A DNA stretch of 64,000 nucleotides, taken from assembly GCF_000299335.2 (NCBI RefSeq), contig NZ_CP004387.1, positions 3,178,994 through 3,242,993 of the forward strand, given 5' to 3'. Shown piece by piece: positions 50,894 to 57,051 of this stretch. Made by a program: the position numbers and the translations under genes. The notes under the pieces were generated by a model that saw nothing but the letters and a program-made list of their open reading frames with translations, was not told where the DNA came from and searched no databases. Every line of letters starts with the position of its first letter. The first letter of the stretch is position 1. Source of the DNA: Isoalcanivorax pacificus W11-5 (lineage in GTDB: Bacteria; Pseudomonadota; Gammaproteobacteria; Pseudomonadales; Alcanivoracaceae).

Positions 50894-50922
50894 GCCGAAG
50901 GCTCGCGCCTTCGGCTGCTTTT
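50894..50922 (+). terminator. terminator-like hairpin
   Basis: GCCGAAGGC-tcgc-GCCTTCGGC followed by TGCTTTT, a 9-bp perfect stem with a short U-tract, downstream of topB. Confidence 0.65.
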
Positions 50923-51033
50923 CCCTTCACGCCAGCTTTCGCTGCGCCGACGCACCACGCTCGGCAAGCAATCGGGCGATCACCGCGAGCGGATTTCGGC
51001 TCGCCAATGCACGCCAAGCCTCCGAACCTACAG

Positions 51034-51128
51034 CCCATGCGCGCTGACCTCCGTCAGCACCATGCCCAGGCAGCTTCGGTCTTCAAAGCTGCGACGCGGT
51101 TCTTCCGCGTTGACCGATCCAGTCCGCT
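51034..51128 (+). ncRNA. three-hairpin leader RNA element, copy A
   Basis: P1 GCTGAC/GTCAGC (51043-51058), spacer CACCATGCCCAG, P2 GCAGCTT/AAGCTGC (51070-51092) with loop CGGTCTTCA, P3 ACGCGG/CCGCGT (51094-51110), then TTGACCGATCCAGTCCGC. The same order recurs at 52.85 and 56.22 kb with compensating base changes in the stems. It lies in the leader of the 77-residue protein gene. Confidence 0.7.
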
Positions 51129-51178
51129 TCGCATCGCTCGTGCGGACGATCGCCATGTCCTGGCGACGATGCTTCGTT

Positions 51179-51246
51179 CCACCCCACGGGAATCCGCTTC
51201 ATCCCGTCGGGATGTGGCGCTTCCCATCCCTTCATAGGAGAGCACC
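51179..51246 (+). promoter_or_regulatory. attenuator-like leader, copy 1
   Basis: ATCCC-gt-CGGGAT hairpin (51201-51213); its GGGATG can pair instead with CATCCC (51225-51230) just before a short T-rich run and the ribosome site AGGAGAG. Fits the C-G-C-G-C-U order shared by seven leaders in this region. Confidence 0.55.
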
Positions 51247-51480
51247 ATGTCCTTCGATCCTGTCGCACTCAAGCCCACAGGCCCTTCGGGTCTGCTGGCG
51301 CTGGCGTATGTGGGCAAAAGCCTGCCCTTGCAGGTGCTGCGCAGTGCCGCCGGGCACTACATCGGCACCTTCGACGACGACGGCCCCGTCTCCCGCGAGT
51401 CCGTCGAGTATTTCCCGAGCCACGAGGCCGCTCGCCATGCCCTGGAAACCGGCGCATGGACGCAGCGCCAGTACCCGTGA
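51247..51480 (+). CDS. small conserved ICE protein
   Basis: 77 residues, MSFDPVALKPTGPSGLLALA-YVGKSLPLQVLRSAAGHYIG-TFDDDGPVSRESVEYFPSHE. Resembles small proteins found after topB in ICEs; no motif for a function. It may bind nucleic acid weakly (small, basic-to-neutral). Has a strong ribosome site AGGAGAGCACC. Confidence 0.75.
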   Translation: MSFDPVALKPTGPSGLLALAYVGKSLPLQVLRSAAGHYIGTFDDDGPVSRESVEYFPSHEAARHALETGAWTQRQYP

Positions 51481-51513
51481 TCCCCATCCATCTGTCATCA
51501 GGAGAACCTCGTC

Positions 51514-51906
51514 ATGAATCCGATGAGCGAGCAGGCGATCTTTGACGAGATCGCGCGCAACGATCTGCACTTCTCGAAAGCCCCCGACGCCTTTTTCCAC
51601 GCCTGGAAGCGCGGCGTCGAACTGGTCGGCCCCGGCCTGTTCGGCAACGGCACGCAGGAATGTCTGAACCTGGCCGTAGACAAGTGGGACTTGTGCCCGA
51701 ACGTCGCCGTCATCAGGAAGACCATCGGCGCCATGAGTTCCGGCGAAAGGGTCTTTCTCGCCGCGATGGTGAGCTTCTACAACGCCAAGGACGGCGGTGC
51801 GCTGCTCAAGCGCGTTGGCGTCCACGGTCTGGCCGACCTGGGCGGCCTGGACCTGGAGCGACGCAAGATCATCGCCACGCTGATCCTCAACTACACCGGC
51901 TGGTAA
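51514..51906 (+). CDS. conserved ICE hypothetical protein
   Basis: 130 residues. MSEQAIFDEIARNDLHFSKA-PDAFFHAWKRGVELVGPGLF, then SSGERVFLAAMVSFYNAKDG-GALLKRVG. Alpha-helical, soluble. No named domain recognised. 33 bp behind the previous gene with AGGAGAA, so likely cotranscribed. Confidence 0.75.
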   Translation: MNPMSEQAIFDEIARNDLHFSKAPDAFFHAWKRGVELVGPGLFGNGTQECLNLAVDKWDLCPNVAVIRKTIGAMSSGERVFLAAMVSFYNAKDGGALLKRVGVHGLADLGGLDLERRKIIATLILNYTGW

Positions 51907-51948
51907 CAGCACCGGCGGCCCATCATTCGTGACGGGCACCGTTTCTTT

Positions 51949-52012
51949 CATCCCTCTGGGGTCGATCCCCGGCAGGGGATCGGCTCCGCCTTTCCTCTAC
52001 TGGAGAACCATC
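51949..52012 (+). promoter_or_regulatory. attenuator-like leader, copy 2
   Basis: GATCCCC-ggca-GGGGATC (51964-51981), a perfect 7-bp hairpin; its GGGG can pair with CTCC (51984-51987) in front of CCTTTCCTCT and the ribosome site TGGAG. Confidence 0.55.
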
Positions 52013-52738
52013 ATGAACCCCAATGCCAATCCTGTTTCCAATCCCTTCGTCCGTGGCTACAACGGCCTTTCCATTCAGCGAATGATCGCCATCGCCTACG
52101 ATGACGACTGCCCGCTGACCTATCTTCCGCTGCACGCCTCGCAGTCCCATCTGCGGGACGACCAGATCCTGCGTTTTGAATGCGTCTTCTGCGACGACTT
52201 CACCTTGATCACTCAAGGCCAAGCCGTGCCGGATGAACTGGACGCTCAATGCCGGAACCATGGCTTCGCGCGCACGGTGATCTATGCCGTCATGGCGGAC
52301 GACTTCGGAACGCCGGTGCATGTCGGCGATACCTATTCCGAAGAAGCCGCCCGCGACGTGGTGCGGCGTCTGACCTTCGACACCGGCCACTACAGCCGAT
52401 GCTGGGAGATCAGTTCCGGGCATCTTCCCGAGGAAACGATGCAGTATCTCGAAGACCTCGCGGACACGTCCACGCTCACCGGCCTGTTGTTTGAAGCCTT
52501 CAGGATTCCCGACAGCGATGCCGTGGGCGTGAAGTTGATCGCTACGCCCTGGACCGACGCCAACCTCGAAATCGTCGATGGCCGCGATGTCCAGGCCCTG
52601 TATAACGAGCAGGCGAATGCGCGCGTTCCTTCATCGCTGCTGAACGTGCTGCACCTGGCCGCCATGGCGGACGTGCGCGTACTGATCTTCGATCCGAACG
52701 CCGCGATACTGGACGGCCTCCCCGTCTACGAAGAATGA
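52013..52738 (+). CDS. conserved ICE hypothetical protein
   Basis: 241 residues from MNPNANPVSNPFVRGYNGLS. Segments IQRMIAIAYDDDCPLTYLPL, HGFARTVIYAVMADDFGTPV, YSRCWEISSGHLPEETMQYL and LNVLHLAAMADVRVLIFDPN-AAILDGLPVYEE. The last phrase is typical of a family of ICE proteins (possibly the DUF5983 group). Soluble; no catalytic motif seen. Confidence 0.75.
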   Translation: MNPNANPVSNPFVRGYNGLSIQRMIAIAYDDDCPLTYLPLHASQSHLRDDQILRFECVFCDDFTLITQGQAVPDELDAQCRNHGFARTVIYAVMADDFGTPVHVGDTYSEEAARDVVRRLTFDTGHYSRCWEISSGHLPEETMQYLEDLADTSTLTGLLFEAFRIPDSDAVGVKLIATPWTDANLEIVDGRDVQALYNEQANARVPSSLLNVLHLAAMADVRVLIFDPNAAILDGLPVYEE

Positions 52739-52751
52739 CCCCCTCCACCTT

Positions 52752-52781
52752 GAGCCCCTTCACGGGGCTCTTTCTCTTTGT
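52752..52781 (+). terminator. intrinsic terminator
   Basis: GAGCCCC-ttcac-GGGGCTC followed by TTTCTCTTTG, 13 bp after the stop codon. Confidence 0.85.
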
Positions 52782-52850
52782 GCCCCACAGAAATAGGGAT
52801 GGCTGCGGAAGCCGATTGACGGTCGCCGGTTCGCCGCCGCCATGCCACGC

Positions 52851-52948
52851 TGCGGCCATGTTCCGCTGATCCGTCAGCAACATGCCCAGGTAGTCACGGT
52901 CTTCGAGGCTACGACGCGGTTCCGACCGCGTGACCGATCCAGTTCGCA
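52851..52948 (+). ncRNA. three-hairpin leader RNA element, copy B
   Basis: P1 GCTGA/TCAGC (52865-52878), AACATGCCCAG, P2 GTAGTC/GGCTAC (52890-52912) with loop ACGGTCTTCGA, P3 ACGCGG/CCGCGT (52914-52931), TGACCGATCCAGTTCGC. Upstream of the DUF3577 gene. Shares the linkers of copies A and C, but P2 differs in sequence while still pairing. Confidence 0.75.
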
Positions 52949-53020
52949 CCAGCATCCCATGCGCGAACGTTCGCCCCTCCCAGGGCGAAGGATGCACAAG
53001 CAGTACCTGGATCGTTCGAT

Positions 53021-53103
53021 CCATCAACCCGCGCGGGGGTTATGCCTCCCCGCCGGGGTGGGTGTGTCTCCGCCTTCTTGTCCCTCAAGTCTGGAGATTC
53101 ACC
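53021..53103 (+). promoter_or_regulatory. attenuator-like leader, copy 3 (DUF3577 gene)
   Basis: AACCC-gcgcg-GGGGTT (53026-53041), then CCCC-gcc-GGGG (53048-53058). The second CGGGG can instead pair with CTCCG (53068-53072) before CCTTCTTG. Ribosome site TGGAG follows. It stands behind copy B of the three-hairpin element. Confidence 0.6.
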
Positions 53104-53634
53104 ATGACCACTTCATCCGAAAAGTCCAACTTCTTCGATCTGCACATCACCGGCCTCGGGTATCTCAATCGCATCCGCGAAGTGAAGCCCAAGAAAGGCG
53201 ATGCCTTCCTGGCCTGCGACATCGCGGCGCTCAATGGTCCCAGCGATAAGCCGGAGTACCGCCGTTTCGACGTGCGCGTATCCGGCAGCGAAGCGCAGCA
53301 CCTGATCCGCCGTTGCGTCCCCGCCGTCGAGGCCGAACGCAAAGTGCTGATCGGCTTTCGCCTGGGCGATCTGTGGACCGACATCTTCACCTACAGCAAG
53401 GGGAAGCGTGTCGGCGAACAGGGCGTCAGCCTGAAGGCCCGCCTGCTCTTCGTAAGCTGGATCAAGGTCGATGGCCAGCTCGTCTACAAGGCCGAACCCA
53501 AGGCCTCCGAGGAAGCGGCTCGCGACGAAGCGCCCAGCGTTTCGAGCGAACTCACTGCCCAGGATGCACCCGCATCCGAGGCGGTTTCCGACGACGAAGC
53601 AGCCGAAGTACCGGCGTTGGCCGAGTCGTTCTAA
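53104..53634 (+). CDS. DUF3577 / STY4534-family ICE replication-associated protein
   Basis: 176 residues from MTTSSEKSNFFDLHITGLGY-LNRIREVKPKKGDAFLACDI-AALNGPSDKPEYRRFDVRVS, the DUF3577 signature, with an OB-fold look. C-terminal tail acidic and Ala-rich. STY4534 homologues are described as ICE replication proteins, possibly single-strand DNA-binding. A structured-RNA motif has been reported in front of DUF3577 genes in other bacteria, which fits the long leader here. Confidence 0.88.
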   Translation: MTTSSEKSNFFDLHITGLGYLNRIREVKPKKGDAFLACDIAALNGPSDKPEYRRFDVRVSGSEAQHLIRRCVPAVEAERKVLIGFRLGDLWTDIFTYSKGKRVGEQGVSLKARLLFVSWIKVDGQLVYKAEPKASEEAARDEAPSVSSELTAQDAPASEAVSDDEAAEVPALAESF

Positions 53635-53640
53635 ACCCAC

Positions 53641-53662
53641 AAGGCCCCCTCGCCGGGGCCTT
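53641..53662 (+). terminator. terminator-like hairpin
   Basis: AAGGCCCC-ctcgcc-GGGGCCTT, 6 bp after the DUF3577 stop, followed by a T-poor run GCTTCCTTTCC; moderate terminator or processing site. Confidence 0.6.
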
Positions 53663-53735
53663 GCTTCCTTTCCATCCAACGGGCCGCCGGTCTTTCCGAT
53701 CGGCGTCTCGTAACCTCATCGTAAGGAGCTGACCC

Positions 53736-54347
53736 ATGATCACTCTTCCCGGCCAATTGGCCATCAAGACCATCCACGGCAGGAACGGCGACTTCAACGT
53801 CGGCCGCCTCGCCACCTCCATCGGCGAGTTCGTCATCAAGAACGCCGAGCTGGACCAGTACCGCGAAGGCAAGTACGAGGGCGATTTCGTCATCACCGAG
53901 ATTCGCCCTTCGACGTACAACACCAGCGGTCGCATGGTCATCGAGATCCGCGCACACCTGGGCGGAATGACCTTATCGAACATCGACCACCTGAGCCGCG
54001 ATGAAGCCAACCGGCTGAGTCCGCAGGAAGTCGATCCGATCGACGAGGAAGCGCAGGCACCTGTCCCTTCCACTTCGGCACCTGCCGAAGCGAAGGCGGC
54101 AACGTCCAGCGATCCCCTGGTCGATACCACGCCGTTCGGCGCCGACGTTCCCGCCAAGCCGGCTTCCAAGCCGGTGACACAGGACGACGACGCCACGCTG
54201 TTCGGCGCTCTCTGGCCGCTGGGCGAGATCGTCAAGCTCGATGCCACCGTCGATCGCCGCCTGTTGCGTCAGCAACGCGACCGTCTCGGTGCCTTGGGCT
54301 ACGAGTTCGCGCCGCTGTCCCAGGACTGGCATATCGCCTCCGCCTGA
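53736..54347 (+). CDS. DUF3275-family ICE protein
   Basis: 203 residues. MITLPGQLAIKTIHGRNGDF-NVGRLATSIGEFVIKNAELD-QYREGKYEGDFVITEIRPS is the DUF3275 domain (OB-like). A disordered Ala/Pro linker follows and a C-terminal segment LLRQQRDRLGALGYEFAPLS-QDWHIA. Found beside DUF3577 in this ICE family. Function unknown. Confidence 0.87.
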   Translation: MITLPGQLAIKTIHGRNGDFNVGRLATSIGEFVIKNAELDQYREGKYEGDFVITEIRPSTYNTSGRMVIEIRAHLGGMTLSNIDHLSRDEANRLSPQEVDPIDEEAQAPVPSTSAPAEAKAATSSDPLVDTTPFGADVPAKPASKPVTQDDDATLFGALWPLGEIVKLDATVDRRLLRQQRDRLGALGYEFAPLSQDWHIASA

Positions 54348-54373
54348 TCCCTCCGTCGCTTCCCGCGACGTTC

Positions 54374-54440
54374 CAACCACCCGCCGGGGTATTTCCCCCG
54401 TCGGGGGAGTGCTCCGGCTTTTTTTCACAGGAGAACTCCC
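54374..54440 (+). promoter_or_regulatory. attenuator-like leader, copy 4
   Basis: ACCC-gcc-GGGGT (54379-54390), CCCCC-gtc-GGGGG (54395-54407), then CTCCG (54412-54416) and seven T's. CGGGG/CTCCG plus the T-run is a textbook terminator; pairing of the same G's with the upstream C's would prevent it. Ribosome site AGGAGAA lies just after. The clearest copy. Confidence 0.7.
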
Positions 54441-54821
54441 ATGGGCTGGTATTTCTCGCGGCAAACCCGCGACCAACTGATTCGCGAATTGATCGAACCG
54501 CAGGAGGGCGAAAACGCTCGCTCGGAGGTCATCGCCCACACCATGCGCGGCAACGTGCTGTGGTCCGTGACGCGCATCACCGCCAAGCAGGCGGGATTCA
54601 TGAAGCTCGCTGCCGGCGATTCCATCAACGTCATCCGTTGCGACCTGCTGCAAGGCTCGGGCGGCGAATGGGGCCACAAGCCCCTGGATGAATCCATGCA
54701 CCCCTACTACTACTCGTGCCCGTTGCGCTATCTCGACATGGCGCCGGTGCAATCCCCCGAGTGGCGGGAAGGCGTGCTCGCTCATCACGCACGTCGACGC
54801 ATGCCGGCGTCAGTGGCCTGA
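54441..54821 (+). CDS. conserved ICE protein (DUF6927-like)
   Basis: 126 residues: MGWYFSRQTRDQLIRELIEP, NVLWSVTRITAKQAGFMKLA, SINVIRCDLLQGSGGEWGHK, LDESMHPYYYSCPLRYLDMA. These stretches recall the DUF6927 family, common on plasmids and ICEs. Soluble, unknown function. Preceded by an attenuator-like leader and strong ribosome site. Confidence 0.78.
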   Translation: MGWYFSRQTRDQLIRELIEPQEGENARSEVIAHTMRGNVLWSVTRITAKQAGFMKLAAGDSINVIRCDLLQGSGGEWGHKPLDESMHPYYYSCPLRYLDMAPVQSPEWREGVLAHHARRRMPASVA

Positions 54822-54837
54822 GCACGAGAGGTACGTC

Positions 54838-55143
54838 ATGGACCCGATCCTGGCCTCTCTCCCGGCGTCGTTGCTGCGCCTCGTCGAAGATCAGTTGTCC
54901 AACAACGAAGTTTCCTCCGACGAGGAACTGCTCGATCACTTCATCAGCGACGGTCTCACCGAGGAACAGGCACGGCAGGCGTTGACCTACCGCGACCAGT
55001 ACCTCGCCAACCTCTACCTGGACGGTTTCACACCGACCCTCAAAAGGGAGCGAAGCGCTTCGCCTCAACCCCTACAGCCGGCAATTCGAGCCGGACTGAA
55101 CCGCAGGTCTGTGCTTCACGGGGCTGCATTCCTCTTTACCTGA
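54838..55143 (+). CDS. small conserved ICE protein
   Basis: 101 residues from MDPILASLPASLLRLVEDQL-SNNEVSSDEELLDHFISDGL-TEEQARQALTYRDQYLANLY. The first 60 residues are helical and acidic; the last 35 (SASPQPLQPAIRAGLNRRSV…) are low-complexity and may be read into the terminator region. 16 bp behind the previous gene. Confidence 0.65.
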   Translation: MDPILASLPASLLRLVEDQLSNNEVSSDEELLDHFISDGLTEEQARQALTYRDQYLANLYLDGFTPTLKRERSASPQPLQPAIRAGLNRRSVLHGAAFLFT

Positions 55144-55151
55144 TCCATACA

Positions 55152-55177
55152 GGCCCTGCTCCGCAGGGCTTTCTTTG
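55152..55177 (+). terminator. intrinsic terminator
   Basis: GCCCTGC-tcc-GCAGGGC followed by TTTCTTTG, 9 bp after a stop codon. Confidence 0.85.
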
Positions 55178-55250
55178 TCCCATGCAATCGCACGCATCCG
55201 GCTTTTGACCTCTCGATGCCGATTGCTCCAATCCTCAAAAGGAGATAGTT

Positions 55251-56078
55251 ATGAAACTCGCATCCCGCTTTTCTTATCGTTCTCCGGTGCTGCGTTCGGA
55301 TCACCCGTTGTCGGATGATCAAATCCGCACCGTCGCCCCATCCATCTTCGCGAAAACCCCGCACGAAAGCCGTTCCCAGCGCTACAGCTACATACCGACC
55401 GCAGCCGTGTTGACGGAGTTGCGCAAAGAGGGCTTCCAACCGTTCATGGTGTGCCAGACACGTGTGCGCCACGAAGATCGGCGTGACTACACCAAGCACA
55501 TGCTGCGGCTTCGTCATGCGAGCCAGATCAATGGCACCGAGGCAAGCGAGATCATCTTGCTCAACTCGCACGACGGCACCAGCAGCTATCAGATGCTGGC
55601 GGGCATGTTCCGCTTCGTCTGCCAGAACGGCCTGGTGTGCGGAGACACCTTCGCCGACGTCCGTGTTCCTCACAAGGGCAACGTCACCGATCACGTCATC
55701 GAAGGCGCCTACGAGGTCTTGCAGGGTTTCGAGCAAGTGCAACACTCGCGCGACGCCATGGGTGCTATCACACTCGATGACGGTGAGGCCAAGGTCTTCG
55801 CCAGATCGGCGCTGACCCTCAAATACGACGATTCCGGCAAGACCTTGCCGATCACGGAAAGTCAGGTTCTGCGGCCACGTCGTTTCGACGACAACCGTTT
55901 GGACCTCTGGTCCACCTTCAATCGAGTCCAAGAGAACCTCATCAAAGGCGGCCTGACCGGTCGTACTGCGAACGGGCGCCAGCAACGCACGCGGCCCGTT
56001 CAAGGCATCGACCAGAACGTCCGGCTGAACCGGGCGCTCTGGCTGCTGGCGGAAGGTCTGCGTCAGCTGAAAGCCTGA
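55251..56078 (+). CDS. DUF932-family protein
   Basis: 275 residues from MKLASRFSYRSPVLRSDHPL behind AAAAGGAGATAG. DUF932 stretches: YSYIPTAAVLTELRKEGFQP, HMLRLRHASQINGTEASEII-LLNSHDGTSSYQMLAGMFRF-VCQNGLVCG and LVCGDTFADVRVPHKGNVTD-HVIEGAYEVL. DUF932 proteins occur on plasmids, phages and ICEs; the fold is beta-rich and an early-entry (phage-like LGT) role has been proposed. Function unproven. Confidence 0.9.
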   Translation: MKLASRFSYRSPVLRSDHPLSDDQIRTVAPSIFAKTPHESRSQRYSYIPTAAVLTELRKEGFQPFMVCQTRVRHEDRRDYTKHMLRLRHASQINGTEASEIILLNSHDGTSSYQMLAGMFRFVCQNGLVCGDTFADVRVPHKGNVTDHVIEGAYEVLQGFEQVQHSRDAMGAITLDDGEAKVFARSALTLKYDDSGKTLPITESQVLRPRRFDDNRLDLWSTFNRVQENLIKGGLTGRTANGRQQRTRPVQGIDQNVRLNRALWLLAEGLRQLKA

Positions 56079-56084
56079 CCCTCA

Positions 56085-56123
56085 AGCGGATCATGCCCAT
56101 GACGGCATGGTCCGCTTTTTTTG
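56085..56123 (+). terminator. strong intrinsic terminator
   Basis: A 13-bp stem AGCGGATCATGCC / GGCATGGTCCGCT (one G-T pair) with a 6-base loop and seven T's, 7 bp after the DUF932 stop. Confidence 0.92.
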
Positions 56124-56221
56124 TTCGGCAGACACCCCTTCGGAGCCCTCTTTGCAAACAGGGTGGCGTCGCGTGGCGGTTTTTCGCTCCCGCTCATCGG
56201 CCTGTTGAAGCAGGCTACTTC

Positions 56222-56300
56222 CCATGTCCGTCGGCGTTGCCGACAACATGCCCAGGTAGCCGAGACCTTCAAGGCTACGGTGCGTTGCGACGCACTGGTT
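56222..56300 (+). ncRNA. three-hairpin leader RNA element, copy C
   Basis: P1 GTCGGC/GCCGAC (56230-56244), AACATGCCCAG, P2 GTAGCC/GGCTAC (56256-56278) with loop GAGACCTTCAA, P3 GTGCGT/ACGCAC (56280-56295). All three stems differ in sequence from copy A yet pair perfectly; single-stranded linkers are kept. Lies in the leader of the 215-residue protein gene. Confidence 0.75.
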
Positions 56301-56335
56301 GTTCTCTTTGCCAAGACGCTCACCGGGCGTTCCCT

Positions 56336-56403
56336 TCCATCCCCCTGGGGCAGTGACTGCCCTCGCGGGTGGTGCTGCCTCTGTTTTCTTCGAGGACATC
56401 ACC
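56336..56403 (+). promoter_or_regulatory. attenuator-like leader, copy 5
   Basis: CCCCC-t-GGGG start, GGCAG-tga-CTGCC (56349-56361), and CCC-tcgc-GGG (56360-56369), sharing bases so that only one can form; then GCCTCTGTTTTCTT and ribosome site CGAGGA. The terminator arm is weaker than in copies 4, 6 and 7. Confidence 0.5.
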
Positions 56404-57051
56404 ATGCCTGCATCTACATCACCCAATGTGCTCTACCGCATCGACGAATGCCCCGACCTCATGGCCGACGGCTGCATCGGTGACGAGCACGGCAACTTGG
56501 TCTTCCTGTCCGTCTGGGCGCGCGATACCGCCGTCCAGGAGTTCCTTGCCCGTCTGACCCTCGGTCGGTCCGAGCAGGGGCTGGATCAGTTCCATCTCGT
56601 CACCGATCAGGCATCGATCCCGGTCTTCGTCGGCAATGCGGACAACCTGGAGAAGCGCACCACGCGCGTCTTCCGGCGCACGCTGTTCGGCTCGATGTCT
56701 CATCTGTGGCTGTTCGACAAGCGCTGCGTGAAGCCCGACAAGGCCAACGCCAGCGCATTGGCGCTACTGCCCAGGACAGTGACCGACCACACCGAACGCC
56801 TATGGGCGCTGGTGCGGGAGACCTGCCCCCTGCCTCTACTCGATCACTGGCGCGATGCCGTGCTGGAGCTGCTGCAATCACGGGACATGCTGACCCGCCT
56901 TCCGTTCGCCCTCGGGCCGCTGGAAGGCCATCGGCTGGCCCTGGACGTTCCGGCGCTGACCACAGCGCTGGGCGAACTGATCCGCAACGGCACCCTTGGT
57001 GTTTCGCAGGTCGAGCTGGCCTCGGGCAAACCGCTGCGGCGGGTGGCCTGA
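56404..57051 (+). CDS. conserved ICE hypothetical protein
   Basis: 215 residues from MPASTSPNVLYRIDECPDLM. NLVFLSVWARDTAVQEFLAR, LFGSMSHLWLFDKRCVKPDK, HTERLWALVRETCPLPLLDH-WRDAVLELLQSRDMLTRLPF. Soluble, mixed alpha/beta, no known catalytic motif. The start was chosen because it follows the conserved leader and CGAGGACATCACC. Typical of genes between DUF932 and the DUF6094 methyltransferase-like gene. Confidence 0.75.
   Translation: MPASTSPNVLYRIDECPDLMADGCIGDEHGNLVFLSVWARDTAVQEFLARLTLGRSEQGLDQFHLVTDQASIPVFVGNADNLEKRTTRVFRRTLFGSMSHLWLFDKRCVKPDKANASALALLPRTVTDHTERLWALVRETCPLPLLDHWRDAVLELLQSRDMLTRLPFALGPLEGHRLALDVPALTTALGELIRNGTLGVSQVELASGKPLRRVA

Follow-up and report, generated by a model that had tools for sequence, protein, structure and literature searches.

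Why should one and the same structured RNA stand before several genes of an integrative and conjugative element (ICE), and before genes of more than one family? The question is raised by a stretch of 64,000 nucleotides from Isoalcanivorax pacificus W11-5 (contig NZ_CP004387.1, positions 3,178,994 to 3,242,993; the whole stretch is hereafter called the window), in which an earlier note, made from the letters alone, had pointed out three elements with covarying hairpins in long untranslated leaders. Here, we identify these elements as radC RNAs, extend their fold, place their relatives on the transcripts of ICEclc and propose, tentatively, what they may do. The family has been known since 2010 (radC RNA motif, RF01754; Weinberg 2010, PMC2864571) and is an orphan with respect to function, about which nothing was found in the open-licence literature. 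Our contribution consists of a more complete fold, a map of the RNAs on ICEclc and a functional hypothesis; as far as our searches of the literature reach, the fold, the map and a testable function are new. Part of the added helices may have been proposed already in Rivas 2020 (PMC7657543), which names radC as a family whose covariation support goes beyond the database structure.

Family membership and homologues

Each element is a radC RNA located in the 5' leader of an ICEclc-type ICE transcript. The comparison of the window with Rfam 15 (cmscan) returned three matches above cut-off, all of them to RF01754 and none to any other family, and their resemblance to the radC RNA is far above chance (scores and E-values of the 64-kb search are given in Table 1). 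A fourth copy (125.9 bits) was found in the same genome some 15 kb beyond the end of the window, 5' of a RadC-family gene, and all four exceed the curated cut-off of 40 bits. The core helices P1, P2 and P3 and the conserved CCCAGG are all present, and the sequence CATGCCCAGG is identical in the three window copies. Along the 149 positions of the Rfam model, the 3' hairpins are formed in copies 1 and 2, while copy 3 aligns end to end with seven broken pairs in that part. A further radC match within a coding frame (56902-57028, 21.3 bits) stays below the cut-off and is taken as chance.

The three elements, with the sequences and the P1 to P3 stems that the earlier note had described, are thus where it had put them, and its picture of structured RNAs in long leaders of ICE genes, one of them (copy 2) before a DUF3577 gene, is borne out. 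The element is not new, as the Rfam search shows, and the note had ended copies 1 and 2 too early (by 44 and 47 nt, respectively); its count of three is right for the window and one short for the genome. Identity with a DUF3577 RNA motif, which the note had left undecided, found no support: no such match was obtained at E <= 5 in 44-64 kb, provided that the library includes such a model, and the literature search did not find DUF3577 together with an RNA motif. The only non-radC match to overlap the elements up to E = 5 was a weak and unrelated one (mir-1905, 22.3 bits), and the others in 44-64 kb were likewise weak and are regarded as chance.

Homologues were sought in genomes encoding relatives of the DUF3577 protein adjoining copy 2 (the best 80 of 115 relatives were used), which makes for a set biased to DUF3577 loci. 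A profile built from eight copies recovered 224 elements, 218 of them on the plus strand, from 86 sequences (3 of the 224 matches were dropped), and 76 of these 86 sequences carried two to four elements. With added loci the matches rose to 289, from which 265 were anchored (170 distinct) and 24 were dropped as edge or unanchored; the covariance model search covered 51 chosen sources. The first genes downstream of the 265 elements encode DUF3577/STY4534 proteins (95), a small protein of ~78 amino acids (72), a protein of 265 amino acids with a weak, below-cut-off match to KfrB (58), a protein of 218 amino acids (20), RadC (11), a protein of 130 amino acids (7) and singletons (2). The RNA is therefore common to several gene families between which blastp shows no link. 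Among 72,556 plasmid records, 5 carry the element; the three inspected include copies 5' of STY4534 in Enterobacter ludwigii and 5' of a hypothetical protein in Pseudomonas veronii. An Rfam search of 369 genomes of the host class gave matches in at least two, own genome included (a lower bound, since no more than 8 candidates per genome were scored). A phage origin was considered and rejected: blastn against 50,697 phage records gave nothing, and viral contigs yielded one exact pattern match, at a locus that was among those scanned with the profile. One genome (G371; L092, L094, L097, L100, L138-L144, L153) yielded twelve matches on four contigs and apparently harbours more than one ICE.

A pseudoknotted core and two architectures

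The Rfam consensus printed by cmscan contains P1 (with its CAUG/CAUG extension), P2, P3 and 3' hairpins, and the four copies of this genome agree with it in the CAUG/CAUG helix, in CCCAGG and in P1 to P3. It lacks P4 and the pseudoknots (such lines may omit pseudoknots), whereas our comparison of homologues adds three helices, P4 and the pseudoknot helices PK1 and PK2. PK1 joins four nucleotides of the P2 loop to the four directly after P3 (as GAUC/GAUC, GGUC/GACC or GACC/GGUC); P4 occurs as GUUCGC/GCGAAC, GUCCGC/GCGGAC, GCUCGC/GCGAGC, GAUCGC/GCGAUC and GGCCGC/GCGGCC; and in PK2 a GCAUC of the P4 loop binds the GAUGC that follows P5 (GCACC/GGUGC and GCUUC/GAAGC are seen as well). The three hairpins of the earlier note correspond to P1, P2 and P3, and it had overlooked PK1, P4, P5 and PK2.

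Support was gauged against a null model in which the changes of each column were placed randomly on the tree (1000 simulations). Over a set of 107 distinct cores, pairing in the five helices of the core amounts to 95.9-99.7% (null means 79.1-91.5%), so that the claim of pairing kept while the sequence changes stands. For PK1 the core rows gave 61 double-change cells against 5.5 in the null (0/1000 simulations as high) and 96.4% pairing against 88.6% (reached in 27/1000). In the 76 rows with the P4-type 3' domain (architecture A), double-change cells numbered 32 for PK1 (null 2.3; 3/1000), 37 for P4 (2.5; 1/1000), 117 for P5 (17.7; 0/1000) and 10 for PK2 (1.1; 18/1000), the last being paired in 99.7% of cells (null 95.4%; 0/1000). 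The percentages of P4 and PK2 are inflated, since these rows were selected (116 matches to 95, to 81, to 76 distinct) partly by pairing in P4 (at least five of six pairs) and by a GCnYC motif in its loop, and anchoring left four of the five 5' letters of PK2 fixed or nearly so. The support for PK2 comes mainly from its third and fourth pairs (AU 71, UA 4; UA 69, CG 6, CA 1). Fourteen rows without the motif were dropped, two of which (L150:1106, L149:4387) have P4 without such a PK2 strand, the others being of the second architecture or misaligned.

Two further views of the alignment are available. In 23 seed rows, chosen by 5'-strand pattern, alignment quality and eye with P4 pairs not counted, P4 and PK1 are paired in 100% of cells and PK2 in 58.3%, the latter because its 5' strand is misaligned by one column in about half of the rows (the model, R1, includes P4 and neither pseudoknot). 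The earlier note had held that a covariation test with no significant pairs would speak against the structure; the stricter all-pairs test returned four at E < 0.05. Two of them belong to P5, one to P4 and one to P2; PK1 and PK2 contribute none, their best E values being 3.0 and 14.2, respectively. As to the folding strand, gains of G-U wobbles (61 over all helices, 63 in the core) exceed those of A-C (20 in each) about threefold (p ~1e-6), which indicates that the mRNA strand folds. Comparison thus shows an mRNA-strand RNA in which a P1-P2-P3 core, tied by PK1, is joined in one of two architectures to a second pseudoknotted domain.

The architectures follow the downstream genes. Architecture A was found in 94 of 95 DUF3577 copies, 71 of 72 small-protein copies and all 11 RadC copies, and architecture B, in which the P4-type domain is absent and PK1 leads into another hairpin and then the leader unit, in 58/58 copies 5' of the 265-amino-acid protein and 20/20 copies 5' of the 218-amino-acid protein. 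Copy 3 belongs to this shorter type: beyond its core (P1-P2-P3-PK1, ~56222-56300) the P4/PK2 domain, with the PK2 motif, is missing. Divergent radC RNAs with a GCUUC/GAAGC PK2 were seen in two loci (L149 996-1889, L151 1885-3101), two of them 5' of an unfamiliar protein of ~120 amino acids (MSTFSY...) and two 5' of a DUF3577-like protein.

Promoter-like motifs, terminators and the transcripts of ICEclc

Upstream of the RNAs, 79 of 177 distinct stretches carry a promoter-like motif of the form AATGCGGACAGCCGCGAGTGCCGATT (AATGCGG...GCCGATT), as against 206 of 20,000 windows drawn at random from these loci, coding parts not excepted; the pattern had been composed after inspection of these same upstream regions. 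Its distance is fixed: although 120 nt were searched, the motif ended 26-31 nt before the element in 79/79 cases, which by prediction would place these RNAs near a transcript start. By family, it was found in 38/69 stretches for DUF3577, 24/31 for the 265-amino-acid, 12/46 for the small, 3/16 for the 218-amino-acid and 2/5 for the 130-amino-acid protein, 0/8 for RadC and 0/2 for others. In L149 and L151 a terminator, a sigma-70-like promoter and the RNA stand back to back (by eye). We take the motif for a putative late promoter of the ICE, which may be identical with the 27-bp motif described in Sulser 2022 (PMC9286271).

Downstream, predicted intrinsic terminators are dense and strongly oriented. 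In 81 loci, the 724 kb that begin at the first element and extend 5 kb beyond the last one hold 475 sense and 29 antisense terminators, and the 357 kb upstream in the same loci 38 and 21. Among the 475, 211 end <= 60 nt before a gene start (leaving scant room for a promoter), 47 at 61-120 nt and 27 at 121-400 nt; a further 116 are found no more than 350 bp 5' of a radC RNA, 38 fall inside an element, and for 36 no start follows in the next 400 nt. The window repeats this pattern, with 11 sense terminators (one within copy 3) and no antisense one in 51.0-61.1 kb, four sense and two antisense in the preceding 10.9 kb, and two and one in the next 18.3 kb. GC-rich hairpins that carry a T tract and lie 20-30 nt 5' of the start codon (51957-51988, 54383-54418 and 55151-55171 in the window, and in L010-L089) occur at many ICE genes devoid of a radC RNA; the attenuator-like unit that the earlier note had seen behind each copy is real and not peculiar to these leaders. 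A GGG..CCC..GGG..CUCC design adjoining the Shine-Dalgarno site also recurs, with no Rfam match in the window.

ICEclc offers transcripts on which these predictions can be laid. One genome of 398 (G528) carried chlorocatechol dioxygenase above the cut-off, in two copies of identical score, together with two sets of five radC RNAs, and is very probably P. knackmussii B13. ICEclc positions (3469498 minus the G528 position) were derived from the table of open reading frames (ORFs) and agree with ORFs 91884, 94175 and 95213. Sulser 2022 (PMC9286271) reports bimodal promoters 5' of 88400, 81655 and 58432 (weak, without RNA-seq confirmation), and rises of read coverage without promoter activity 5' of 84835, 89247 and 73676, for which processing is mentioned. 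In the same study ORF81655, whose leader contains a radC RNA, is preceded by the highest coverage of all and its reporter only equals Pint, a mismatch from which additional post-transcriptional mechanisms were suggested. Its motif is stated to occur at only eight of the nine bimodal promoters and nowhere else in ICEclc, with which the motif-like stretch that we see by eye before 84835 is in conflict unless the two motifs differ.

The ICEclc transcripts led by a radC RNA contain 16 predicted terminators in 25.5 kb, against 3 in the 21.1 kb of the remaining core transcripts (p = 0.007). Without the terminator inside an element the former number becomes 15 (p = 0.011); the transcript 89247-89746 (RNA inside, one terminator) is excluded from the count. 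By reverse-transcription PCR (RT-PCR), Gaillard 2010 (PMC2892462) connected the ORFs of 83350-84835, and those of 68241-81655 except 73676-74436. Since the predicted terminators at 84,750-84,722 and 84,317-84,296 lie inside the first of these transcripts and that at 81,651-81,626 inside the second, all three are seemingly passed in vivo. If the predictions are right, read-through seems real yet incomplete, considering that the radC-led transcript 85934-88400 appears to end at the terminator 85,926-85,909 and that RT-PCR failed across the terminator 74,407-74,392 in the radC-led 68241-81655 (where the tiling array shows no break); not all terminators are passed. The RT-PCR gap 73676-74436, where mRNA cleavage has been suspected, contains this last hairpin. 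The RNA 5' of ORF89247 contains a terminator-like hairpin (89,593-89,577; L137 19906-19921) that overlaps the 3' strands of P5 and PK2 and has seven T behind it, so that pseudoknot and terminator would compete.

Table 1. Features of the window (window positions) and radC RNAs of ICEclc (ICEclc positions).
Feature	Position	Strand	Remarks
radC RNA copy 1, architecture A (P1, P2 with PK1, P3, P4, P5, PK2)	51026..51172	+	114.9 bits, E = 3.3e-21; 5' of 77-aa ORF
radC RNA copy 2, architecture A	52847..52995	+	124.5 bits, E = 2.2e-23; 5' of DUF3577 / STY4534 gene
radC RNA copy 3, architecture B	56213..56360	+	88.5 bits, E = 3.3e-15; 5' of 215-aa ORF
P1 (copies 1; 2; 3)	51043-51058; 52865-52878; 56230-56244
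P2 (copies 1; 2; 3)	51070-51092; 52890-52912; 56256-56278
P3 (copies 1; 2; 3)	51094-51110; 52914-52931; 56280-56295
PK1 copy 1	51078..51115	+	GGTC 51078-51081 (P2 loop) with GACC 51112-51115 (after P3)
PK1 copy 2	52898..52935	+	GGTC 52898-52901 with GACC 52932-52935
PK1 copy 3	56264..56300	+	GACC 56264-56267 with GGTT 56297-56300; one G-U pair
3' domain copy 1	51122..51172	+	P4 GTCCGC/GCGGAC 51122-51127, 51142-51147; P5 51148-51167
PK2 copy 1	51131-51136, 51167-51172	+	GCATCG/CGATGC; shares one base with P5 as written
3' domain copy 2	52942..52995	+	P4 GTTCGC/GCGAAC 52942-52947, 52963-52968; P5 52970-52989
PK2 copy 2	52952-52957, 52990-52995	+	GCATCC/GGATGC
Motif-like stretch AATCGGGCGATCACCGCGAGCGGATT	50970..50995	+	5' of copy 1; by eye only, not among window pattern matches
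Promoter-like motif ATAGGGATGGCTGCGGAAGCCGATT	52793..52817	+	5' of copy 2
Promoter-like motif AACAGGGTGGCGTCGCGTGGCGGTT	56157..56181	+	5' of copy 3
Intrinsic-terminator-like hairpin	50894..50915	+	between ORF ending 50445 and copy 1
Intrinsic-terminator-like hairpin	52752..52770	+	76 bp 5' of copy 2
Intrinsic-terminator-like hairpin with T run	56084..56117	+	95 bp 5' of copy 3
Terminator-like hairpin	51957..51988	+	24 nt 5' of ORF 52013, between copies 1 and 2
Terminator-like hairpin	53640..53663	+	between DUF3577 and DUF3275 genes, 3' of copy 2
Terminator-like hairpin, 16 pairs then seven T	54383..54418	+	22 nt 5' of ORF 54441, 3' of copy 2
Terminator-like hairpin	55151..55171	+	5' of DUF932 gene
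77-aa ORF	51247..51480	+	first gene after copy 1; no Pfam / NCBIfam match
DUF3577 / STY4534 family ICE replication protein	53104..53634	+	first gene after copy 2
215-aa ORF	56404..57051	+	first gene after copy 3; no Pfam / NCBIfam match
ICEclc radC RNA	89,718-89,581		5' of ORF89247
ICEclc radC RNA	88,820-88,685		5' of 88400
ICEclc radC RNA	85,833-85,682		5' of 84835
ICEclc radC RNA	82,808-82,663		5' of 81655
ICEclc radC RNA	59,141-58,994		5' of 58432

The neighbouring ICE ORFs 51514-51903, 54441-54818 and 54838-55140 of the window have no Pfam match, and the first two have no NCBIfam match either.

What the RNA may do

The arrangement of a promoter-like motif, a structured RNA and a run of terminators leads us to prefer, tentatively and short of calling it probable, a cis-acting antitermination element. 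The nascent radC RNA, alone or with host factors, would act in cis on the elongating RNA polymerase, and a polymerase that has made it would pass the intrinsic terminators downstream, of which the units behind the RNAs contain many by prediction. Polymerases that come in from the chromosome or start at leaky promoters would have made no radC RNA and would stop at these terminators; the transfer genes would thereby be silent in non-competent cells, and long transcripts would become possible once the ICE promoters fire. In its fuller form, which is a shade more doubtful, the proposal is that a two-pseudoknot antitermination RNA of the ICEclc family gates the terminator-studded transfer genes to the ICE's own late promoters, as a Gram-negative counterpart of canT, and is part of what confines transfer competence to few cells. 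An ICE-encoded NusG-like partner was considered and rejected, the two NusG-family genes of the genome lying > 800 kb from the window. The newest transcriptome paper on ICEclc (PMC13098234) mentions neither antitermination nor terminators nor leaders, and PMC13023037 has antitermination-type wording in its reference list alone.

The proposal has models elsewhere. According to PMC11658703, canT of Tn916 also belongs to an ICE, and a terminator there shields the ICE genes from host read-through; that system is Gram-positive and its function was shown by experiment, whereas function is deduced here and the likeness is one of description. The put RNA (phage HK022) and EAR (B. subtilis eps operon) are antiterminator RNAs reported to act independently of protein factors (PMC11658703). 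Their layout, like that of canT, of a dedicated promoter, a folded RNA early in the transcript and terminators within the unit is the one that the radC loci resemble; in the window, radC is the sole Rfam family above the cut-off. The conAn1/conAn2 system of pLS20 likewise involves RNA in the antitermination of a long conjugation operon, but uses a protein, ConAn1 (PMC11658703).

Several observations weigh against antitermination. The motif was missed in 98/177 upstream stretches, including 8/8 of the radC-gene copies; 116 of the 475 sense terminators lie just 5' of a radC RNA (and are likely unit ends) and 38 within the element itself; the T tracts of many leader hairpins are imperfect; and like hairpins stand 5' of ICE genes without the element (51957-51988, 54383-54418). 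The loci are homologous, hence their terminator counts are not independent. In ICEclc, UR73676, one of the three promoterless read-rise regions, has no radC RNA, and to this are added the transcript end at 85,926 and the RT-PCR failure across 74,407.

The main rival, which we consider rather unlikely, is a leader switch: the radC RNA would sense a ligand, a protein or a state, and the hairpin unit would free or hide the Shine-Dalgarno site or attenuate locally. A conserved core with a variable 3' part does resemble an aptamer with its expression platform. The Shine-Dalgarno site is less accessible at 154 distinct radC-led starts than at 300 other starts of these loci (mean unpaired 0.12 and 0.22; p = 3e-15), most hidden in DUF3577 (0.006, n = 58) and RadC (0.027, n = 8) leaders, and GGG/CCC/CUCC strands can pair alternatively with it in five families (by eye). 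The same values reach 0.34 in the 265-amino-acid (n = 27), 0.21 in the 218-amino-acid (n = 16) and 0.12 in the small-protein family (n = 43); sequestration of the site, strong in just two of five gene families, was therefore rejected as a general rule. Comparable hairpin units at genes without the RNA, and an RNA common to gene families unlinked by blastp, also speak against a switch; for a riboswitch, the mixed downstream genes point to no ligand.

Less likely, and in our judgement improbable, is a processing or stability element, i.e., a cleavage site or a protective 5' structure setting mRNA ends in polycistronic ICE transcripts. Two of the five ICEclc RNAs (before 84835 and 89247) do coincide with promoterless read rises (Sulser 2022, PMC9286271), and the slope break at ~86,000 of Gaillard 2010 (PMC2892462) adjoins one radC RNA. 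The element before 84835 has, by eye, a promoter-like stretch, and the rise there could be due to a promoter that the cloned fragment failed to capture; the suspected cleavage gap 73676-74436 holds a terminator and no radC RNA, and the constant motif distance suits a transcript start better than an internal site.

Single-strand promoters of the Frpo type are known from plasmid work. A single-stranded DNA element of this kind, or a priming site, acting on the transferred strand would fit the position of the RNA, which among the loci examined precedes genes of ICE replication type and further ICE genes, both on chromosomes and on two inspected conjugative plasmids. Such an element is nevertheless very improbable given the G-U gains expected of an mRNA-strand RNA and the promoter-like motif 5' of it.

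The fuller fold (P4, PK1, PK2 and the two architectures) is of use whatever the radC RNA does. Were it an antitermination element, this would account for the terminator-like hairpins just before start codons in a widespread ICE family, might be relevant to the discrepancy of read coverage and reporter output at ORF81655 of ICEclc, and would offer an answer to how the transfer genes stay off in non-competent cells, a question that is posed in Sulser 2022 (PMC9286271).

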